NCBI RefSeq assembly: GCF_048128805.1 | Contig: NC_136000.1 | Coordinates: forward strand, 22,004,946 to 22,068,945 | Reading direction: 5' to 3' | Length of the DNA: 64,000 nucleotides | Origin: Centroberyx gerrardi | Taxonomy: Eukaryota > Chordata > Actinopteri > Beryciformes > Berycidae | Part shown: positions 31,249 through 56,652 of the stretch, in pieces | Position numbering within the stretch: the first letter of the stretch is position 1 | How the letters are laid out: every line of letters starts with the position of its first letter | Notes under the pieces: model-generated | What the model was told of the DNA's origin: nothing | The model's input: only the letters and a program-made list of their open reading frames with translations | Databases searched by the model: none | Made by a program: the position numbers and the translations under genes

Positions 31249-34200
31249 CACCTACTCATCACCACAACTGTTCAAACCTTTTGACATTCCACTTTTCTCC
31301 TTCCCACTTTCATCGCAATTACCTGCATTCATCTCACTGGCATGGACCTTGGGAGCCCTCAGATGGCTTCATTGGCTGTAATACATTATACATTTACTGG
31401 AACTGATCCCCACACTTCTGAGAAATCAACTATTCATTTCGCTCCAGTTCATTTCCACCCCCACCATCTCTGCATGAGGCTGCTCATTTATTCTTTTTCC
31501 ATGAACCATGCCCCCCTGTGGTCATTGTTTGAGCTATTTTCTGAGCAGAGACTCCTATTTACCTGGAAAATAATGGACATGAGGACACAATATTGCTCCT
31601 CTTGTTTACTTTGGTCAACTGCTCTCCATGGTACAAATCATTTTGTTTCTGTTTCTGTCTGTGGGACCTTGGCACTGTTCTGAGGCAGCAACTGATCTAG
31701 GACATTCAAATCAATTAGGCACTGGGTTGATAATTTTTGGATGCAGTTTCTGCTGATCAACCCACAAAATCTCAGAACCTCTTTCTATTTGATATGACTG
31801 AGAGAGATACGCAAAACCAACAATATCTCAAGTCACCTATAGCCATATGTCTTTGATTCTCCATATCAGGGCTCCCTCCCAAAAGTCCAAAAATAACTCA
31901 TCCTTTCCCCTGCCCCCTCCTGCTTTGCTCCATGTCCTGAAATCCAGCGCTCATGCCAGCCTGTTGCCTCTTGTCTCAATAGCAGAGGAGAGCAGAAAAG
32001 CTTCTTAAAACATCAACATAATCCTCCTTTGGCAGACGATGCCCGAGTGTAGCTATCCTTCTCCAGGGAATAAATTACATGACCCAGCAGAAAACCGCAT
32101 CCTGTGCTTCAGTGTGAGATGATTGTGCCAGTTGTGTGAGAAGACTGAATCATCAATGAGGACAAACACTCCGCTTTTAGAATACTGACAAAAAGCAGAA
32201 ACCCTCAAGATTCAATTACTTGAAAGTTGATGGCAATTATGTCTTAATACATACTGTATTAACAGATCATTTTACAGAGCATTTACTCTCATTTATGATG
32301 CTGTCCCAGTCCCTTTCTCTCATTTCCTCTCTTCCCTTTGTCTGCTACAAGCTACGTCCTGGTAGGAGATATGTGGTACAGTGTGAGAGGGCAGGGAAGG
32401 AGGGGCGACATGTTTTGGGACACATCTCTCATGTCCCCAAGGAATGAACCCCTTCAGGACCAATCCCATTTCACTTCATAGATCCCAAACTTTTACCCTC
32501 TCTAGGTGTCATTATGGTCGGGGTGATCATCGGCTCCAAGAAGATGGGAATCAACCCCGACAATGTGGCCACGCCCATGGCGGCCAGCTTCGGGGACCTC
32601 ATCACTCTCGCCTTCCTGGCCTGCTTCAGTCAGTGGTTCTACACATTCATAGGTAAAGAAGGAGGAGGACAAAGAGAGGCTAAGAGGGGACAGTTTGAAT
32701 CTGTAACACAGAGGAGACTGGAGCAGAACAGTGTATTTGATTTTGGAAGGATACAGTGGCTTTGTCATTTTCACTTTCGGCCAACAGATGGCACTTGTGA
32801 CCATTTTTGCAGCAAGGAATCAGCTTTGCATCAAGTTTTCAAAAAGATCAGACCCATTCATGAAGATCTGAGACTTGACTCATTGTTGTCTAGTTTCAGA
32901 GTGAGTCCTGGTTGAAAATGTATGTATTAATGATTGTCTTCTCTCTTTACAGAAGTGTATCCCTATGTGTTGTACTTGGTGGATCTGTTATTTTTGTCCC
33001 TGATTCCTCTTTGGGTGGCTGTCTCCTCCAAACACCCAGCCAGCAGCATCCTCCTCCGCACAGGATGGGAACCAATCGTTACAGCAATGGTCATCAGCAG
33101 GTGCTCCACTCAGCTTCAGAAATGACTGTTCCTCAGGTCTTTGTGAAAGTATTCAGACTCCTTTACTTTTTGCACATTTTGTTGTGCTAGTAAGTTATTT
33201 CAAAATGCACGTATTGAGGATTTCTGTTCTGTCTGATTTCCTGGACATTAGAGTCCAGTTCTTGAGGTTTAAAAGAAAAATAAATCCCTATTTCACTTTG
33301 CTGTAGTGAAAATATATTTTTTTCTGTCTAATTTTTTAGACTTCTATCGTAAAATCTGGACTGGAAAAAAACACTGAAACTGCATCTTCTCTATTTTGAC
33401 TTTAGTGATTGGAAAGAGATGCTTTATATTTTCTTTTAAACCTCAAAAACTGGACTCTAACTCTCTCTAATGTCATCCATAAATGAACCATATTCACATA
33501 CTGTGCTTGACTCCACCCTACACCTACACCCTAAAATCCCATTAAATCCCATTAAGACCTAGTGAAGTGACACACAATACAGTTAGGATGTCAAGGATCC
33601 GTTTAAGGGTCTTATTTAAAGAGGCCTACGGTGATCCTTGGATGTAAAGCAGTGTGAGGCCCAATATGTATTTTATGGGGAGCATAACCTCTTATATGGG
33701 CTAGGACACACCCTTGAAATACATGCACAATGCCAAAATTAAAGTACAATGAGTATATGAACCTAAATACCCTTCTCTGGGTAACCCAAAATAAATGCAT
33801 TTTGAAATAACGTGACAGCACAACAAAATGAGCAAAAAGTTGAGGGGTCTGAATACTTTTGCAAGGCACTGTATATGGCAATATCGAGCAATTTCTATTT
33901 CATTTCCAAGAGCATTATTACAGTGACTCTCTGTTTTGCCCTCTCAGGTGTTTTCTCTCTTTTCCTTCAGGCCTTCTGTATGTTCACTCTTGCCGTGTGG
34001 CATCAAACTCCTTTCAAAATCTTGTATTGCAGAAATAGACAAAAGATTATTTTTATTGAGTCTAGTCAAATGCTACATAGTGTTAGACAATGAATGTAGA
34101 ATTTATACAGCTCTTGAAAAAACATGTTTTTGGTTGTCTTTCTTTTTAGTCTTGGAGGACTTATTCTTGACAAAACTGTGTCAGATCCAAACTTGGCAGG

Positions 34201-41187: not shown

Positions 41188-42500
41188 ACCACTATGAGCT
41201 ATCCTTACTCTCTACAGGAATAAGCAGATTAAGATCAACAGTATACAGTAATAAGGCCAGGATCTGGTAAACAGGTGGGACGTACAGTTTAACATGGCTG
41301 ATTCTTATTTGGGAAAATATCACCTAATATTGTCAAAGCGTGGTCTGCAGCATCGTGGCTAAGCTTACTGGGGGCCGCATGGTGGTGGATTGAATGAGCG
41401 TGGTCAAGAGAGCGTTGATATAAAATATACCTGCTGTGGAAGGTGGATTCCCAAACGTAAGTCAAACAAATATAAGAACACTCTAAAGCTGGGTAATAAG
41501 GTTCAGCAGTCGGTGGAAAACTACCAACAGAATTATGCTACAATTGTATGGCCAACTCTGGTAAACAGCATGTGAGCAGAGGAGCTGTGGCCTTGAGGTC
41601 TGTGCTGCTAAATGAATACTCTTGTACTGCTAGAATACACTTATGAAAGAACACCATTGTTTTCTTTGTTAGTCTTTGTTTTCTTTGTTTTTGTAAATCG
41701 CTTTTTAATTTGTACTATTTATTGATGGATTAATATTTCATTTGTAAATTATTTTTGTAATTCCTCTTTTTATTGCCCATTAAAATATCAAATAATGAAT
41801 TACTTTGTAATTTAGTCTATTTATTCATAGATTAATAAATTAATTTGTAAACAAATTTATTAATGCCTATTTTTATTGTACAATTAGTTATTAATTAATG
41901 AAATGCTTTATTACTATTTCCGTGACACTTGTGGTCCTCCATACGGATGGGATAGACACACATTTCACCCAGAGGTCTTCCTCTCAGTATAGTTTTCCAT
42001 TGTTCTAACACACAGATACATTTCACAGCATATAACAAGTTTAGCAATCACACATCTCTAAACTATCCGTCCTTCATCATGACAATAGGTCATGAAGCAT
42101 GTTTACTTCTAAATGTTGCAATCATTTAGAATCCGTTTAGCTAAACCCCCCACAGGGTTTAGCTAAACAGAGTGAAAACAGTGTCTGTCCTCCACTCAGA
42201 CCAGGCTCAGCCGAGAGTGGCACCGGCCCCAGAGACAGGACAAGACGTATACGTAGGTGTCATGTATGCATAAGTGCCACAATGCATACAGTGTGACCAA
42301 GGCCCCTTTGAATCGTGCCTTGGCCGGTAAGTCCGGTCACAGTCGTGTAATCAGTCACTTTGTCTATTCGCTTCCACCAGCCGGGCAAAAAAAGTTAAAG
42401 TTATGTTCCAACCACAGAACTTCATTGGATAGAACGGTCCTTCCACTGGTTGTCATGGTAATTTGGCAATCTGTCAGGTTACACCGCAAACTTTAATCCT
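41188..42500. other. Intergenic, AT-rich
   Basis: Includes an AT-rich block of taatttgtaa/attaataaatt words (about 41,690-41,910) and the hairpin at 42,135-42,168. No gene was recognised. Confidence 0.4.
42135..42168. repeat. Perfect 14-bp hairpin
   Basis: GTTTAGCTAAACCC, a 6-nt loop, then GGGTTTAGCTAAAC. Each arm itself contains the palindrome gtttagctaaac. Confidence 0.85.
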
Positions 42501-42506
42501 AACGCT

Positions 42507-42597
42507 ATAAAACAAATTATAACAAACAGTTCCTCATTGCCATGATAAAAAACAAATAAAACAAATTATAACAAGCAGTTCCTCATTGCCATGATAA
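42507..42597. repeat. Tandem duplication, 49-bp period
   Basis: ataaaacaaattataacaa plus agcagttcctcattgccatg occurs twice, beginning at 42507 and 42556, with one base difference. It looks like a recent local duplication. Confidence 0.85.
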
Positions 42598-43044
42598 AGT
42601 ATTCAGACGATCTATTGAACTCTCTGCCAAAACTTCAAAGCAAGTATTGATCTAAGTTGGGGTGGCTGCTTTTTAGAAAGTGACAAGAATCGATCTTCAA
42701 AGACCATGTGTGGAAAGACCCATAAATCCTGAGGGTCTGAGTACCCTTCAGGCACCATGGAGAAGGTGTTGAGGGATCAAAGACTTGTAGAGAAGGCCAC
42801 AGTGCACCGCAGGCACTGTTAAGATTAACCTGGATAAAACAAGTTTAGATAAGATTAGATGAACCTTTAACGATCCCTGTGTGGAAATTGGAACAGGGTC
42901 TGGAGGGATTGAAGACTTCTAGGGAAGGCCACAGTACTTTGTAGGTACAACCGTATAGGACATAATCCAAACTTTGGCTTGCACATACGACTGCTTTACC
43001 TTTCACATGCATGTATTGTGAGATACTCTCATTTAACCTACTGA

Positions 43045-43460
43045 AACACTCACACACACTTTACTGAAAACCTCTCACATTCCCTACTAAACCACTCTCA
43101 TATATGCTATAAATGTTCACACACACACACACACACCAGTAAGACCTTTGACATTCACCACTGAAATATTCTCATAAACACGACTGAAATATTATATGCT
43201 CATACATACTACTTAAAAATTCTCATATACACTATTTAAATGCTCACACATACACCACTGAAATAAACCTCTCACATACAATACTGAAATTTAACCTCTT
43301 ACATACACCATTGAAATGTAACCTCTTATACACTACTGAAATGTAACCTCTTACATACAACACTGACATTTAACCTTTTACATACACTACTGAAAAACAC
43401 CTCACACATATACTAATGAAATTGAACCTCTTACATACACTACTGAAAACCACCTCACAC
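43045..43460. repeat. Minisatellite of ctcacatacactactgaaat-type units
   Basis: Irregular units of about 20-30 bp (acctcttacatacactactg followed by aaatgta) repeat a dozen or more times. An inverted stretch of the same units lies at 43,686-43,795 across the promoter-like cassette, so the whole could fold back. Confidence 0.8.
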
Positions 43461-43690
43461 TAGCCAAACTCCTGAATTATCACCCACTTTTCAGAAAGTC
43501 TGGTGTTTCCCTTGTCAATGGGAAACATTGACAATTGTTCCTCGATTGTTCCTCGCTCAGAGGAACAATCGAGCCAATCAGTGCCTTTGTGGGCGGGGCT
43601 AAAGTTTGAACCCGTTCGTGCAGCGGTTTTTCATTGGCATTTCGGAAGGAGATTTGTTGAAATAAAAAATGTAAATTCAATTTCAGTAGT
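43445..43690 (+). promoter_or_regulatory. GC-box/CCAAT cassette, left copy
   Basis: Contains gagccaatcagtg (CCAAT box) and tgggcggggc (GC box), in a segment repeated almost exactly at 46,478-46,690 in the same orientation. It lies about 300 bp upstream of a 5'UTR-like exon, so it is a plausible promoter for the coiled-coil gene. An 11-bp hairpin (gattgttcctc/gaggaacaatc) sits just upstream and is disturbed in the other copy. Confidence 0.5.
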
Positions 43691-43899
43691 ATATGTGTGA
43701 GGTGGTTTTCAGTGGTGTATGTAAGAAGTTACATTTCAGTAGTGTGTGAGGTTAAATTTCAGTAGTATATGTAAGAGGTAAAATTTTATAATGTAACAAA
43801 CACAAAAGTCTGAGTTGATTTCAGGTATCATTTACCTGTGTATTTACAATAGGAGCTGTGGAATTAGAAGGCCCTTGTTAGCATTGTGATGCAGGATAG

Positions 43900-44066
43900 A
43901 ACTCTGAGCATGTGAGACCTGGTGCAGAGCAGAGCCACTTCAGTCCATCACACAGCGCGAATAAGCAGCAATATACAGGCAAAAATCTGTAAAACGAGAA
44001 CAAATACGAACTAAAATAACTGTGAAACGTTTCAGCTGGAACTTTCACACGACCCATCTTTAAAAG
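43900..44066 (+). other. Candidate non-coding first exon of the coiled-coil gene
   Basis: Ends at a strong splice donor, TAAAAG followed by GTAAGTAC at 44067. The next good acceptor (tgtacttccag) ends at 44771, directly before an ATG. The start of the exon is not defined. Confidence 0.45.
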
Positions 44067-44771
44067 GTAAGTACTTTTTGTGTTTTCTTTCTATTCAAAA
44101 AGTGATTAAATTAGTTAATGTATTCCTACTATCAAACAAAAGATCACACATATTGTGCAGCAGTTTGCCCGTTAAGTTTAGACAGTCCTCTCCCTTATTA
44201 ACCACTGCTGTCATATAAACACCATAAACAACATATTGTGTCTTGTTATTAGAGGATTCAAGGGTAAGAAGAACCATAACTCTAGATTAAACACCAAAGA
44301 GTAAAGTATATGGCAAGTAACATCACCAGAACAATGTCAGAAGTTTTATTTAGACATTGACCGAACCCTTACCTTAACCCTGACATTAAGGTCACTGGAG
44401 CCCTTATGTCAAACCTCACACTTAACTATGAAAAATAGAAAAAAGAAAGAAAAAAAGAAAGAAGAAAACAAGAAAAAAACAAGAAAAAAATGTGAACAGA
44501 AGAAACATCATTATTGATTCTCCAAAGTATAGCACTTGTTGACTTTGTGGCTCGGTCACATATTCCTGAAACCTGATCTGCAGGTTTGAGAGAGACATAT
44601 CACAAGAAAATCATTCCCTTCATTAGTTACACAGTCTTAAGCTGTATTAAATTCATTTTTTATCAGTGAGGTCGCCTGCCACCTAATTATAAATAGGCAT
44701 TCTCCATTCTTAAAATTTTATCCCAGTGTGTCTATGGCTTTAATGCTGTAATTGTGTTTTTGTACTTCCAG

Positions 44772-44927
44772 ATGAAGACAGATGCACTTTCTGTGCTCCA
44801 GCAAGAGGAGGCACTGAAAAGAAAGATGAAGAAGCTAAAGCAAAAAGTCAAGCGGCTTGAGAAAGAGAAGATCGCTCTGGCCAACGATGCTGGCTCTGTG
44901 TCACATTATGGCATTGGAGATCTATGA
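44772..44927 (+). CDS. Coiled-coil protein, N-terminal exon
   Basis: The ATG stands immediately after a splice-acceptor-like tacttccag. The 51-codon frame is Lys/Glu-rich and heptad-like (LKRKMKKLKQKVKRLEKEKI), then turns to ANDAGSVSHYGIGDL and a TGA. A weak GT at 44898 would join in frame to the acceptor at 44991, so the last residues and stop may be intronic. I recognise no family. It begins a coiled-coil protein continued at 44,992-45,466. Confidence 0.5.
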   Translation: MKTDALSVLQQEEALKRKMKKLKQKVKRLEKEKIALANDAGSVSHYGIGDL

Positions 44928-44991
44928 ATGAGTTGCAACATACAGATTTCCCACTATATGATCCATCAAAAATATTTCCTTTTTGTTCTAG

Positions 44992-45466
44992 AAAGTGGAA
45001 GAACACCATGCACTCCAGCTTCAGATCACCAGGGAGAAAGAGAGCCAGTCTCGGCGCCGCAGCGGCATCTGCAGAGATGAAAAGGTGCTGGCACGTGAGA
45101 CAGAGAAGCTTGCCCAGAAGAGACGAAAGCTGGAGGACAAGATGAAGGAAGAAGAAAAATACTCTGCAGAGGAAGCATTGAAGAAAAGTTCATCTCTTCT
45201 GCATGATGAGGCACAGGTCAGCAAGATGAAGAAGGACCTGGAGACGGACAGAGTGATCAAAGAAAGAGAGGCCTTTCAAATAGAAGTTGACGACATGATC
45301 GCAATTAGAAAAGCCTTTAAGTTGGAGAGGGACAACATGGCGAAAGAGAGAGAGATCTTCCATAAAGAAACTGTGGCACAACGGATGAGGAGGAAGTCCT
45401 TTAACATCGAAAGTGAAAAAGTCTGTGAGGAAAGGGAAGCCTTCCAGAGAGAAAAGGCAGAGATGG
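44992..45466 (+). pseudogene. Coiled-coil protein, central part, cut by a solo LTR
   Basis: Follows an acceptor-like ttttgttctag. About 158 residues, almost all helix-forming (Lys, Glu, Arg, Gln) with few Gly or Pro. The last 75 residues are built of 14-residue units with core R(E/K)xFxxE, e.g. IKEREAFQIEVDDM, IAIRKAFKLERDNM, AKEREIFHKETVAQ, RMRRKSFNIESEKV, CEEREAFQREKAEM. This two-heptad period fits a long parallel coiled coil. The frame is open up to a 652-bp solo LTR inserted after the Met codon at 45463 and continues in the same phase beyond it (46,119-46,370). No homologue is recognised. Whether a host transcript still splices or terminates in the LTR is unknown. Confidence 0.6.
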
Positions 45467-46118
45467 TGTTGTTGTGGATTTTCTTCCTTCTTCAACTTCC
45501 ACTTCAGGTTCGAGGAGCTGAACACAGAATGAATGAGACAAACTCTGACTCTTTTTCTTTTGGCTTTATTCTTCAGATAATAGAGTACGTAATACAACTG
45601 ATATGTGAAGGGTCTGACCAAGAATTCTCATCTTCAGGTTCTTTTCTAGCTTCTAACCGCCCCCCTCACACCATGCTCCACCTAGAGGGATAGTCTATTC
45701 CCAATTCTTTACCTACTACAGCTCTCTAATTGGTCTAACTGTTGGAATGTGGTCAGTGCGTCAATCCAGCTATTGCTGAAGGAAAGCACCTGTTGTTTTG
45801 TACCTCAAGGTCGAAAGTCTTCCTCCCTAATTCCTGTATCATGCTTTCCCTGATACGAGTGCTCTCTGCATACAATATTTGACTACAGCCTCTCTTTCTG
45901 GCAATAACAATCCCATGAATCTTGCTTGTTTGTGAGAAACTTACTGGCATGAGCTGGTAACAATGACCTCTTTCTCTCTGCTATCTCCTCACTGTACATA
46001 GTGCATGAGTACATGTATGTGTGCTGTCTGATCAAAGGAATGTGTTAATATATTCTCCTTGATTATATTAAGTATAGATTATGCATTGATTATGAAGATA
46101 ACATAGTTTCCTTCAACA
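45467..46118 (-). mobile_element. Solo LTR (ERV-like) interrupting the coiled-coil gene
   Basis: 652 bp beginning TGTTG and ending CAACA, flanked by a perfect 4-bp target duplication ATGG (45463-45466 and 46119-46122). On the minus strand an AATAAA lies in its 3' quarter (plus-strand tttatt near 45,567), as expected of an R region, so the element lies antisense to the host frame. Internal retroviral genes are absent, so it is the product of LTR-LTR recombination. Four-bp duplications fit class-I ERV or some Gypsy LTRs. Confidence 0.85.
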
Positions 46119-46370
46119 ATGGCCATGATGAGAAAGGTCTTGAAAGAACAGGCAGAGATACAGAAGAAGAGGGAGGCCTCGGTGGCCACTGGCCACCGAG
46201 AAACCGGTCGTCAGAGGCATGAAGGCAATGCTGTCAACACACCGGCCAAGTCATCCTGCAGCCTCATGTCAGTGTGGGCCTGCAGGGATGAGCAAGGCAA
46301 CTGTGGCTGCGTAAAAAAAAACAGTTTACACAATCATCAATATTTTGCCAAATACAGATGCACAGACTAG
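46119..46370 (+). pseudogene. Coiled-coil protein, C-terminal part beyond the LTR
   Basis: Continues the coiled-coil frame in phase after the duplicated ATGG: RKVLKEQAEIQKKREA, then leaves the helix for a Ser/Ala/Cys-rich tail containing CRDEQGNCGCVKKN, which could bind metal, and ends at TAG 46368-46370. Removing the LTR and one duplication copy would give one open frame, so the insertion is probably young relative to the gene. I do not recognise the tail. Confidence 0.55.
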
Positions 46371-46477
46371 TTTAAGTGAAGACTGATGAGGAATCCCTTC
46401 AAATTGCAGAGTGGCAAAACACACCCCTATTAAAAGAGTAAAACATCAATATGAGAAAGCTTTGGATACACATATAC

Positions 46478-46690
46478 TACTGAAAACCACCTCACACTAG
46501 CCTGGTTCCACACTCCTGAATTATCACCCACTTTTCAGAGAGTCTGGTGTTTCCCTTGTGGTTTGTTCTCGCTCGGAAGAACAATCGAGCCAATCAGTGC
46601 CTTTGTGGGCGGGGATAAAGTTTGAACCGTTCGTGCAGCGGTTTTTCATTGGCAGTTTGAAAGAATAGATTTGTTGAAATTAAAAACATT
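46478..46690 (+). promoter_or_regulatory. GC-box/CCAAT cassette, right copy
   Basis: A same-orientation copy of 43,445-43,690 (gagccaatcagtgcctttgt, then gggcgggg, then cgtgcagcggtttttcattg). It is shorter in the hairpin segment and points out of the element toward 46.8 kb. Any activity is inference. Confidence 0.45.
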
Positions 46691-46911
46691 TTAATGGTGT
46701 GTGTGAGTGTTTCAGTAGGTTAAATGAGAGTATCTCACAATACATGCATGTGAGAGGTAGTTATAAGTGCAAGCCAAAGTTTGGATTATGTCCTATACGG
46801 CACCTCATAGAAAATACTGTGTGATGAATTAAAGGTCAGTGTACACTGAAGATACTACAAAAAATTAGTGAGGCCGGTATTATAAAAAGTACTGAGACAG
46901 GCCAATGATCA

Positions 46912-47262
46912 AACCATATTTTACTGAACACAAACAACGTACATGGAAAGTCTTGCAACATAAAAGACAGTTTAAGGTAGATAACAAAATCTTTATAGAA
47001 TGCATTGTGATAACAAGATAAACATCTGTCCAGAATTAACAAAAGGCTCTGCTCCTAAAGATCAAATGCCAATGAGCTGTGTAAAGCATATTGGTAGGAA
47101 ATGCATGTGACATCATGGGAATACTATGAATAGCAACGACAAAGATTACAGTGACACAGGTTAAAGTTCAACTTTTATTTTACTGAACACAAACCACATT
47201 AAAAACACTACATGGAAAGTCTTGCAACATACAAGACAGTTTAAGGTTAGATAACAACTTGC
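46912..47262 (-). repeat. Direct duplication of a transcript-3'-end-like segment
   Basis: tacatggaaagtcttgcaac and agacagtttaaggt occur at about 46,940-46,980 and again at about 47,210-47,255. On the minus strand the second copy is followed by AATAAA, so these look like two copies of a 3'UTR end or a retroposed tail. Confidence 0.5.
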
Positions 47263-48598
47263 TTTGGGTGCTTTCTCTTCAAAGAACTTATGTCACTCTC
47301 TGTGTGGTAACTAAGCAAGGAAAAAATCATCATGCATCATCCTGCAGCAGCTATCCACCTCCAACTTGTGACTGTTGATATGAAAGCGAGAGCATTCACC
47401 TTGTTGTCGACTCCCTCCTCCATTCCCTCTGCATCAAGATAATCCATGTTATCTCTACACAAGCTATGAGCCAAAGCTTTTTGCCAAAATGTAACTATTT
47501 TTGGTACATCAATACGGCCGGTAAATAGGTATGTGTAAATACGTCAAACCCAGCCTAACAGTGGTGTTGTAGTGTTGGGGGAGTGCCCCATTCACACTAT
47601 CACACCTCTGCAGATGGATCCTGTCTCTAGACACAGCGGTTTTGAATTGAGGGTAACAATGCAGGCAGGAATCTAGTCCTTGTTATTACCAGTTTGCTTG
47701 TGCTTTGACTAGACCTAAGCTCAAACAAACCACCCCTAGCTCGACATAATCGTCAATGCTCGTCTTAATTCGTACACTCAGTTGAGAAGGAGGGCATCTA
47801 AAAACGGATGGACACTTACCGAAAAAAAAGGATGTGAGGCCATTGATCAGAATTGTCTTTTCCAGAAATCTAATGAGCACCGGACAGTCTATAAGGTGAG
47901 GTGTATTAAAAAAGAAAAAAACAAAAGAAAATAAGGCAAAAAGGTAAAAACTAAAAAGATGGAAAGAAAATTAAGAAAAAAACGAACAAAGTAGAATAGC
48001 GCACTTAGGGATGCACTCTGATCTAACTCTCCTCTCTCTCTCCTTATTATATCCAACTCTGTTTTTTTTTATTACTCTAAATTACCCTTTTGTTCACCCT
48101 TTTGAAATTACGTCTGAACAACAAAGAATAATATCAAAGGCAATAATACAACACCAGTTGTCTGAGTACACCCGTTGTTTACATTCTGAGTAGGCTATAA
48201 TCCGGGTTATCTACTACTGTTTTTTACAATGTTTTTCCACTCAGCAGGACCCCGGGTCTGTGATTACTGTAGAAAGTTATTTGACACACCAGTCCTCAGA
48301 GCAGCTGTCTTATCCCTGTCATTTCAACCAGCATGAAGAGAAGCCACACATTACTTAACAAGAGGAAAAAAGTACTTTTCACTGAGGTATCCAAAAATAT
48401 CTATAAAATATAATATAAAATGTATAAAATATATATATCTATTAGGGGTGTCACGATCGATCGAAATGAGCGTTCAATTCGACCTTCGAAATCACAAGCA
48501 GGTTCACGATTATCCCAGTATTTTTTTTCTCTCCACCCCTGCCTACTTGCACGCGTCTGAAGAAAAAAAAACATTTCAATGACGATACAGCGTAGCTG
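47263..48598. other. Intergenic, repeat debris
   Basis: No gene recognised. A TAGGGGTGTCACGAT-type hAT terminus begins at 48,443, but its partner end was not found. A-rich tracts lie around 47,905-47,990. Confidence 0.4.
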
Positions 48599-51079
<2,481 letters not shown>

Positions 51080-51190
51080 GGTCAGAAAGTCGCCAGATTT
51101 GTTGCTAGTCGCTTTTGAGAAATAAAGTCGCCAGGGGGGTCTGAAAAGTCGCTAAATCTGGCGACAAAGTCGCCAAGTTGGCAACACTGG
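51080..51190 (-). mobile_element. 5' leader of the LINE
   Basis: On the minus strand, CAGTGTTGCCAACTTGGCGA is followed by several tggcgactt words leading directly into the ORF start. The ttggcgact repeats suggest a LINE 5'UTR or a captured repeat. Confidence 0.45.
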
Positions 51191-53390: not shown

Positions 53391-53597
53391 ATGACCCCTC
53401 CCCCTCACACACACGCAGGCACAGAGAGCGACGGGACAAGAGCAAGACTGAGAAGAGCAAAGAGGAGGAGGCCCCGGAGGAGGACCTTTAAGCTGGCCGT
53501 GAGCAACGTTTTAAGCAGTACGAGCGATGTTTTCGGCAGTATGAGCTACTTTTTCTGTGATATGAGTAAGCTCCTGTATGTGGCCGCTAAACCGTAA
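53391..53597 (+). CDS. Small Arg-rich protein in Polinton-like element
   Basis: A 68-codon frame with a strongly basic core (RARLRRAKRRRPRRRTFKLA) and a more hydrophobic Ser/Phe-rich C-terminus. A splice-acceptor-like cacacacgcag ends just before its basic part, and donor- and acceptor-like signals lie further upstream (about 53,000-53,240), so it may be the last exon of a spliced gene. Small Arg-rich peptides are typical DNA-condensing proteins of adenovirus/adintovirus relatives, but the role here is inference from composition. Confidence 0.4.
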   Translation: MTPPPHTHAGTESDGTRARLRRAKRRRPRRRTFKLAVSNVLSSTSDVFGSMSYFFCDMSKLLYVAAKP

Positions 53598-53638
53598 AAT
53601 GTTGTAAGCCAAGGTGTGACATTTTTAATCATTTGATC

Positions 53639-54406
53639 ATGGGTGAAAACGAAGATACAGAACCAAACCTTAGACAGTTAAGGGCTTTAACAGAATCTTT
53701 CAGAATTAATCAAGTTGATGCGCCTGACCCACTACAAGAACTGCCTGTTGTAGACGATCTTTTTGACCTATTTAGGCCCCTCAACAACGCTATTGCAAGC
53801 CTCGATGCACCGGACCACTCACAAACTGTCGCTCTAGAAACAGAAACAGATTGTTTGAACGAAATAAACAACGCTCTCTCAGAATACCAGATACAGCAAG
53901 GGGGTGCAAATGTAAATGATGTAAACAACTCGCAACAAGAGATGCCTGAGCCTCGCACAGAGCCTCGCATAGCTGAGCGCACAGAGCCGCGGGTGGTAAC
54001 GCGCAGTACATTTAATAACGTAGAAATAAGACAGCTTCTGAATTTTCCTCACTCTGAGGGTGATGCCAAGGTAGATTTCGTTGCGTTCTATAATAATGTT
54101 GCGGGCCAAATAAACAATATGACGGCAAGAGCGTTTTCACACGCCATGCACGGAGACGTCATCCAGATGGAGTTGAGAGGTCAAATGTTACAGAATAACG
54201 TATCCCACACCTTTGACGAAGAAATGGATAGAAACGGTTTTCAGAACCTATTGGATAGACTCGTACAATCAAACCAGTCCGTAGCAACGGACGATACTCT
54301 AGAATTAGTCGCCCAAGTAATTCACAACCCACGAGGCGGCGGTAAAAGAAGATTGTTGGAAGAGAGTGTGAAATCCTTAAAAAAAAGGCTTGCTATTTGT
54401 ACGTAG
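53639..54406 (+). pseudogene. Probable N-terminal region of the protein-primed DNA polymerase
   Basis: A 255-codon frame from ATG 53639. Acidic Asn/Gln/Glu-rich first half, then a structured part (KVDFVAFYNNVAGQINNMTA, LDRLVQSNQ) and a basic end (GGGKRRLLEESVKSLKKR). It stops at 54404-54406 while the polymerase frame begins in the overlapping phase at 54397. The junction resembles a single frameshift within one long protein, as Polinton polymerases have long N-terminal extensions of this kind. It could instead be a separate gene. Confidence 0.5.
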
Positions 54407-55299
54407 TAGAAAACCCCGGTAATCAACTCTGTTTTGCCATCAATTTGGCACATCTTATGAGGCCCAATCTCAGTGATAGGGACGCCGCGGTGCTCGGCAG
54501 TGAGATTCAGGATAAAGCGGGGTTGACTGCACAGACGGCTGTGACTTTTAACGACATCTGTAAATTTGAACAGATTTTGAACCGCAAAATTGTAGTGTTT
54601 TACAGAACCGATGATTCAAAAACACTCTCTAAATTCCAGACGTCTTTTCAAAAGCAGTCTAAAGGGTCTACACTGTTTTTATTTCCCTTCCTAAATCACT
54701 ACTACGGCATTAGAAATCTCAAAGCCTTTCTAGGAGTAAAGAACGTGTGCGAGCATTGTTACACAGGATACAACGTTTTGAATCACCGCTGCTACAAATA
54801 CTGTAAAGTATGCTTTGACTCTGACTGTACACAGCATGAGCTAAAACCTACAGCGTGTAACGAATGCAACAGGACATGTCGTTCCCTTTACTGTATGGAA
54901 GCGCACAAAAAGCCTAAATGGCGACCAAATGCCAAAGTATATGCCAGCGATTGCGAAATGCTTAAAAAATGTGAAAATTGTGGCCTGATATACTACATAG
55001 CTTTGACTAAGAACACCGAACCGCACGTGTGTCCATTGCGGAAATGTAAAATCTGCGGGGAGAAACTGCTGTCTGAGTCTGAAGACAAACATGAATGTTA
55101 CATACAGTGCTTGCTCCCCGAGAAAGATTATAACCAGAACTTAATATTCTATGACTTTGAAACGTTTCCAGACGAAAACGGCGTTCACGTCCCCTTTTTA
55201 GTGACTACAAAAACGCTCGAGGGAGAGACGTGGTGCTCTAAAGGGAGAACGAGGCATGTGAGGACAAATTACAAAAGCTACAATCTGTGCACGGTGTAA
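54397..55299 (+). pseudogene. Polinton-type DNA polymerase B, zinc-finger and exonuclease start
   Basis: Begins with NPGNQLCFAINLAHL, then a Cys-rich zinc-binding stretch (CEHC, CYKYCKVCFDSDC, CNECNRTCRS, CENCG, CPLRKCKICG), then the first exonuclease motif YDFETFPDENG. This order is characteristic of Polinton/adintovirus PolB. The frame ends at a stop (55297-55299), and the next block begins far downstream in the family alignment, so the rest of the exonuclease (motifs II and III) appears deleted. Confidence 0.85.
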
Positions 55300-56072
55300 A
55301 AGTGGTAGTGATGAGAGAACACGACTGGACAGAGATGAAAAAATCAGATCGGGGATTGCAGGATTTTCTAAAACATTACAATGCTCCTCAGCCTCTCTCA
55401 CCCCGAGCTGCTTTGTACGGAGGTAGGACGTGTGCGGTACAGCTCAGGTACACAGCCGCTTCTGATGAAACTATACAGTACGTAGACGTGACTTCCCTCT
55501 ATCCCTATGTAAACTGTAACTATCCTTATCCTCTAGGACACCCCGAAATAATCTACAAAGATTTCAAAGAGCCTCAGGTTTACTACGGGTTGATCAGGGC
55601 AGTTGTCTACCCTCCTAGAGGCTTATTTTTCCCCGTGTTACCTTACAAAACGGGAAAAGGTAAACTAGTGTTTACTCTCTGTCATACGTGCGCCGAATTG
55701 AATTTTCAAGAGGGTCCTTGTGCACATAATGATGAGGCCAGAGCGTTGACGGGGGTCTGGGTCACTCCTGAATTTAACAAGGCCTTAGAGATGGGATATA
55801 GGGTCGCAGAGATCACAGAGGTGTGGCACTTTGAGAGACATAGCAAATCTATATTTGTCGAATACATTCACACTTTTCTCAAGGGAAAGCAGGAAGCTTC
55901 AGGCTACCCCCACGAAGCGCTGGTAGATGAAGAAAGCAGAGAAAAATACATAAGGGACTATCATGCAAATCAGGGCATTTTGTTAGACGCTTCTAAAATC
56001 ATATTAAACCCCGCCAAAAGACAAGTGTCTAAACTCTGTCTCAACAGCTTCTGGGGAAAGTTTGCGCAGTGA
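55287..56072 (+). pseudogene. Polinton-type DNA polymerase B, palm with motifs A and B
   Basis: Contains YVDVTSLYPYVNCNYPYPLG (motif A, DXXSLYP) and KLCLNSFWGKFAQ (motif B, KXXXNSXYG-like), with the protein-priming TPR insertion region between them. The frame is closed by TGA at 56070-56072 directly after motif B, where the family continues without a stop, so it is a nonsense mutation. Confidence 0.88.
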
Positions 56073-56652
56073 AGTAATCTGACCCAAACTGTACTGATCA
56101 CTGAGCCTGAAGAATTTTTCAAGTTTATGTTTTCAGAACAATACAAAGTCAAGTACTTCTCCTTCCTCAACGACAGAACGGCTCTGCTTCAGTGGTGTCA
56201 CGGTGATCGGTGTTTCGCGCCCCCCGAGCAAGGCGAACAACGTGTTTATAGCGGCTTTCACCACCGCCTACAGGCGTCTCAAGCTGTACAGTTTTATGGA
56301 GCCTTTGCAAGACAGGGTTCTGTACTACGATACAGATAGTCTGGTGTATGTCACAAAACAGGGGCAGACGCCGCTTGAACTGGGTAATTATCTGGGGGAT
56401 CTGACGGATGAGTTAGAAGGTGACAACATACAGGAATTTGTGGCGGCGGGACCCAAAAGTTATGCTTATCAAACTGTAAACAAAAGAGTAGTGTTGCGAG
56501 CTAAGGGCATCACTCAGACGTGCGAATGTAGCAAACGGATCAACTTTGACAGTATCAAAGAGTTGGTAGAAGGTTACATTGAAAACTCTAAAGAAGAAAA
56601 CGTGCTATCAGCCCCACAGAACAACATTGTGCGCAATAAAAAAGGGATCTAA
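56073..56652 (+). pseudogene. Polinton-type DNA polymerase B, motif C and C-terminus
   Basis: The palm continues in the old frame to about 56,200, where a frameshift moves it to another phase. There the catalytic motif C VLYYDTDSLVYV (both Asp intact) is followed by a C-terminal domain ending at 56650-56652. With the upstream deletion and stop, the polymerase cannot be made as one active chain. Confidence 0.85.

Follow-up and report, generated by a model that had tools for sequence, protein, structure and literature searches.

Is the coiled-coil gene at this locus of the fish Centroberyx gerrardi a host gene that was taken up and moved by a transposon? We analysed a window of 64,000 nucleotides (C4:22004946-22068945, from a source genome of 779 Mb in 278 contigs), in which a preliminary description had noticed inverted ends around a coiled-coil gene. 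Based on the comparison of this interval with the genome, we consider it highly probable that a non-autonomous, IS3EU-like transposon with terminal inverted repeats (TIRs) captured a host coiled-coil gene, then moved and then decayed. The capture, already proposed in that description, was supported by six loci of the gene family at which no transposon end was seen in the flanks covered, by homology that continues among some of them past the edges of the captured DNA (the cargo), and by cargo lying beside the family ends at three other sites. Positions are those of the window, and the parts of the element lie on its plus strand unless stated otherwise.

The inverted ends bracket the interval as described, although their termini had been misplaced. 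Self-comparison of the interval 42500-47300 showed 98% complementarity over 63 nt between the arms 42997-43059 and 46697-46759, and the left arm as query gave at least 39 matches in the whole genome, two of which are the arms of the window itself; its right arm matched query bases 1-130 at 87%. Of these 39 matches, 36 begin no further out than query base 22 (window 42951), and the remaining three are the two arms of the window and a weak match of 71% that begins at base 3. Thus, the 'cacagta' that had been taken for the terminus is flanking DNA; indeed, the left 'cacagtac' falls within a flanking duplication (42765-42816 and 42897-42948). Reading the flanks of the matches, we found that the family terminus is TATGAGG(T/G)GCCGTATAGGACATAATCC. 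It is intact at the right end, at 46809 (CACCTCATA), and at the left end its outer 9 bp are missing, with TAGGTACAA in place of TATGAGGTG (42942-42950). We therefore place the left TIR at 42951-43059, from the arm comparison and the genome matches, and the right TIR at 46697-46809 (minus strand), from an end scan; they form a pair of inverted ends from one TIR element around captured DNA.

To which superfamily does this element belong? The end scan, with the 36-base end as query against the window and the stretches L009-L036, gave 13 end-pair rows, two of which (inner L015; L022 562/3950) combine ends of different elements. Perfect 6-bp target duplications were found in five of the 13 rows (L011, L015, L016, L024 and L025; duplicated 6-mers GTAATC, TTGGAC, CAAATT, CATCTG and AATCTA), around elements of 154 to 1522 bp, where chance would yield about one in 4096 per row, assuming random bases. 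Among the other rows, L036 agreed at 5 of 6 positions, L009 at 3, L010 at 2, the three L022 rows at 3 each, the inner L015 row at 2 and the window at none. The ends also share a TA start, with T first in 34 and A second in 33 of 37 ends listed; these had been picked by 26/36 matches to a sequence that itself starts with TATGAGG, two L022 ends are out of register, and the right end of the window was added and its left end omitted. In complete IS3EU families the termini are always TA..TA, and the duplications usually measure 6 bp (PMC10045372); fungal IS3EU families show TAYGG..CCRTA ends, TIRs longer than 30 bp and accessory genes (PMC12730594), and IS3EU is among the repeats listed for a catfish (PMC9945428).

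Because the TA..TA termini and the 6-bp target duplications match these published features, the transposon family looks like IS3EU as judged from its sequence, and with the corrected ends the earlier statement that no known superfamily is obvious is not supported. Membership is provisional, since no transposase was recognised, which agrees with the preliminary description. When the open frames in L009-L049 with a length of 130 codons or more were read by eye, none was recognised as an IS3-type DDE transposase; a Harbinger-like frame in L048 does not look IS3-type either. Nor did the 13 stretches of 6.6-10 kb beyond one-ended copies contain an end at 23/36 or better that would have pointed to an autonomous partner; the end scan of seven nearer stretches gave weak matches of 23 in L033 and L035. 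The 4.2-kb copy L009 (643-4872) was considered as such a partner and rejected, its interior holding a reverse-transcriptase-like frame instead, which we read by eye as Penelope-like. There is a small but real chance that the ends belong to another or a new superfamily, as the unrecognised transposase and the inexact match of TATGAGG to the fungal TAYGG..CCRTA might suggest; against this stand the TA..TA termini together with the 6-bp duplications, and the fungal signature describes fungal families, not a requirement of the superfamily.

Where does the coiled-coil gene come from? With its main exon as DNA query, we found eight matches in the genome, dispersed over six contigs with three on C4: the window, L023 (C16:3.76 Mb), which carries a family end, and six others (L052-L057) at 69-86% identity. 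None of these six has a family end at 22/36 or better within 1.5 kb on each side; for L052, a further 1.5 kb upstream contained no end at 20/36 or better, and the first stretch had one match at exactly 20. Read from stop to stop, L053 and L054 hold long open exons of 258 and 373 codons, with a common C-terminus SVWACRDE.GNCGC or close to it. The homology of the window to L052-L057 is confined to 43787-46466, the cargo, which measures about 2.03 kb without a later insert. Upstream of its left edge (the L054 point matching 43787), L053, L054 and L055 are alike at 82-91%, and beyond its right edge (the point matching 46466) L052 and L053 are alike at 85% over about 60 bp. The homology of the window does not continue in this way, and therefore it matches the host-type loci only between the edges; at both of them transposon sequence begins. 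Given that six loci show the gene family with no end seen in the flanks covered, and that the homology among some of them runs past the cargo edges, the cargo looks like a captured host gene. The closest locus, L052 (C18, 15.36 Mb), is 95% identical in the first coding exon, 88% in the main exon and 85-92% in the 3' parts.

The cargo retains much of the structure of this gene. Its 5' part (43787-44066) contains the exon of the 5' untranslated region (5'UTR), which ends at 44066 with the good donor that had been described, AAAAG/GTAAGTAC; a donor stands at the same place in L054 and L055 (AAAG/GTAGGTAC) and is lost in L014. The first coding exon (44772-44886, ATG at 44772) follows an acceptor AG at 44770-44771, and its 3' part is missing compared to L052, L053 and L054. 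The first part of the main coiled-coil exon occupies 44992-45466, and the exon is then interrupted by an unoriented 652-bp insert resembling a solo long terminal repeat (LTR) (45467-46118; TGTTG..CAACA ends), flanked by a 4-bp duplication, ATGG, at 45463-45466 and 46119-46122; the uninterrupted site is seen in L023. The 3' part of the exon (46119-46319) encodes what reads as the family C-terminus, SVWACRDEQGNCGC, and is followed by captured host 3' flank (46320-46466), 90% identical to L052 and to L053 over about 155 bp; about 210 bp of L052 between the points 46319 and 46320 are missing in the window. The introns are kept, which points to a capture at the DNA level.

Did the cargo move after its capture? 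A scan of the 28 stretches L009-L036 found cargo sequence in four, which is a minimum for the copies that bear cargo. L023 (C16) has the main exon at 91% and the 3' part at 92%, L020 (C18) has 136 bp of the 3' part at 95%, and L013 and L014 (C8 and its repeat, C109) match the 5'UTR exon and intron, at 94% over 628 bp and at 83-84% over 251 bp. The latter two represent one site, because the 37-kb contig C109 repeats the C8 stretch at about 98% including the flanks and is probably its second haplotype. Cargo thus adjoins family ends at four sites on four contigs, the window included. L014 and L023 have one clear end each; the end in L020 is damaged, with none at 25/36. The left capture junction, AATTTTATAATG, is common to the window and L014, and no similarity between the flanks of different sites was found in the nine flank pieces compared. 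Since family ends on C8, C16 and C18 have parts of the cargo next to them, we conclude that it moved after capture. An occurrence of the ends only as independent short elements, with the gene also present without them in related species, had been named as what would speak against a common element; in this genome gene-less short elements and the end-less gene do both occur, but they are joined at these four sites.

Several observations weigh against this reading. The tree built from the exon separates the window, L023 and L052 from the remaining members with support of 100/100, and it places L052 next to the window (80/81), among the TIR-borne copies; no more than 14% of bootstrap trees unite the two TIR-borne copies in a clade of their own. 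The tree of the 3' part unites the three TIR-borne copies weakly (64/77; 68%). Given this position, L052 may be either the source locus or a copy that has moved and since shed its ends; by inspection its frame is broken, and its flank was read partly (downstream less than 0.9 kb). The evidence at the right cargo edge is short, at about 60 bp. Moreover, the 3' ends of the cargo and the lengths of host 3' flank differ among the window, L023 and L020, which we read as later deletions, although separate captures would also fit. Finally, no cargo copy has two intact ends, so that no target duplication was seen around one (0 of 6 bases agree in the window), and no transposase was recognised.

Between the TIRs, the cargo is embedded in transposon sequence. 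An array of approximately 26-bp repeats (CTCACATACACTACTGAAA type; 43060-43460), seen in the self-comparison and present also in gene-less copies, leads to a first central unit with CCAAT and GGGCGGGG boxes (43461-43675). An inverted array of the same repeats follows (43676-43786, minus strand) and stops at the captured DNA with the junction shared with L014. On the other side, a repeat remnant and a second central unit, a direct copy of the first, occupy 46470-46686 (the unit itself 46508-46686). The promoter cassette of the preliminary description therefore exists as a GC/CCAAT unit and is promoter-like, but it is the central unit of the transposon: it occurs twice in the window and also in gene-less copies, e.g. 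L015 and L018, and is thus not part of the captured gene. L015 is a complete copy whose central unit contains a family end, at position 1002, as intra-element recombination might produce. Subterminal arrays recall CACTA-type elements, whose termini and duplication length differ from those here; an assignment to CACTA/EnSpm, which these arrays had suggested, was dropped in view of the TATGAGG ends with 6-bp duplications.

The reading frame of the coiled-coil gene is present as described, but the gene is broken. With its damaged left end, the loss of an exon end and the 652-bp insert, the window copy is dead. Among 156 codons, 6 differ from L023 synonymously and 18 by a change of amino acid, with one stop in addition, and the proportions of changed sites (pN 0.053 for amino-acid-changing, pS 0.067 for synonymous) suggest no clear constraint, though the gaps that the alignment shows in the exon measure 3 and 6 bp. 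Pfam gave no family for the pieces of the window and L023, and matches for L054 and L053 only below the cut-off; among solved structures the best E for the window piece was 0.21, nothing lower, and protein searches with the L023 and L054 frames gave no match at E 0.001.

Was the gene ever expressed from the element? Since the central unit, with its GC and CCAAT boxes, precedes the gene, past expression, if any, would probably have made use of it. In its strongest form, this would mean that an IS3EU-type element took a nearly complete vertebrate gene, put its own central unit in place of the upstream region of the host as a promoter, and distributed the gene as an expressed accessory, its frame kept for a time, as the in-frame indels might indicate, before decay; we regard this extended scenario as unlikely.

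We consider it quite improbable that the coiled-coil gene was instead an accessory gene of the transposon itself, inherited from larger autonomous relatives, and that the TIR-less loci lost their ends. Such an origin would fit the dispersal of the eight loci over six contigs, with introns kept in those aligned, the grouping of L052, where no TIR was seen, with the TIR-borne copies, the in-frame gaps between the window and L023, and the accessory genes of fungal IS3EU elements (PMC12730594). It is opposed by the non-transposon sequence that host-type loci share past the cargo edges, by an upstream stretch common to L052 and L054 (80% over 107 bp) that the window copy lacks, by the rarity of cargo, which occurs in no more than 4 of the 28 stretches that bear TIRs or neighbour them, and by the long open exons of L053 and L054, compared with a pN near pS in the TIR-borne pair. 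That two independent short elements merely flank a gene copy that never moved is very improbable: the central units on both sides in direct orientation, as if from two copies, and the missing target duplication around the whole interval would suit it, but at three other sites, too, pieces of the cargo adjoin ends of this family, the left junction is shared at the base level by the window and L014, and the flanks compared do not match.

For the capture and movement of a host gene, we propose the following course. The interior of the transposon would have been replaced by about 2 kb of a host gene, comprising the 5'UTR exon, introns, coding exons and some 3' flank, while the upstream stretch common to the two host-type loci would not have been captured. 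The capture may have occurred by template switching in repair or replication, as in the Pack-TIR/FoSTeST model (PMC8277862), and the chimeric element would then have been transposed by a transposase supplied in trans. Later, the copies decayed, that of the window losing a terminus and an exon end and gaining the solo-LTR-like insertion.

Elsewhere in the window, a run of open frames at 53591-56649, one of which matches PF03175 (DNA polymerase B, organellar and viral; E 1.9e-20), is perhaps a Polinton-like or viral-type insertion. Reverse transcriptase frames (RVT_1) of retroelements lie at 48602-51151 and 179-724, both on the minus strand, and a match to the MgtE divalent cation transporter at 32448-32912 is probably a host gene exon.

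How does this element compare with known systems? It had been put forward as an undescribed system; however, gene capture by animal TIR transposons is already in print (PMC8277862). Among 100 animal genomes, that survey counts 370 cases, with a median captured size of 224 bp and mostly single-copy; its multicopy captures are four in frogs and alligators and the fly Ssk-FB4. Like these Pack-TIRs, the element described here has TIR ends around duplicated host sequence, end-less source copies elsewhere, kept introns and several copies; unlike them, it took up about 2 kb, the greater part of a gene with several exons, and pieces of this cargo occur at four sites. The published filters require both outermost termini to be present over 10 bp or more, and a unique parent with an identity of at least 90%; the left end of the window lacks its outer 9 bp, and the closest locus, L052, has the main exon at 88%. 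Hence, the window copy works like a multicopy Pack-TIR though it fails the strict published filters. With IS3EU elements it shares the TA..TA termini, 6-bp duplications and TIRs longer than 30 bp, and fungal members also carry extra genes (PMC10045372, PMC12730594). It differs from them in that no transposase was found, in the fifth base of the fungal TAYGG, and in its cargo, which is a host-type coiled-coil gene and not TET/JBP or alpha-kinase. The main text of PMC8277862 contains no occurrence of IS3EU.

In the literature searched by title or the start of the abstract, with partial coverage, we found no IS3EU element carrying a fish gene. Pack-MULE and Pack-TYPE elements belong to other superfamilies, and Helitrons are elements without TIRs, unlike the element here. 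Similar to it, the Pack-MULE and Pack-TYPE elements are non-autonomous DNA transposons that shuffle coding DNA, in their case in plants (PMC8903248), and in the platyfish a DNA transposon, a Helitron, likewise captured a fish gene, that of an SGNH hydrolase, and multiplied it (PMC4021074). In summary, this is a notable new example of the known gene capture by TIR transposons, not a new system. Published examples of multicopy TIR gene capture in animals are few, and captures in general mostly involve short pieces (PMC8277862). Here, the capture spans a 5'UTR exon, introns and much coding sequence, with the gene family available in the same genome for comparison, and it adds another kind of element in which the coupling of capture and movement can be tested.

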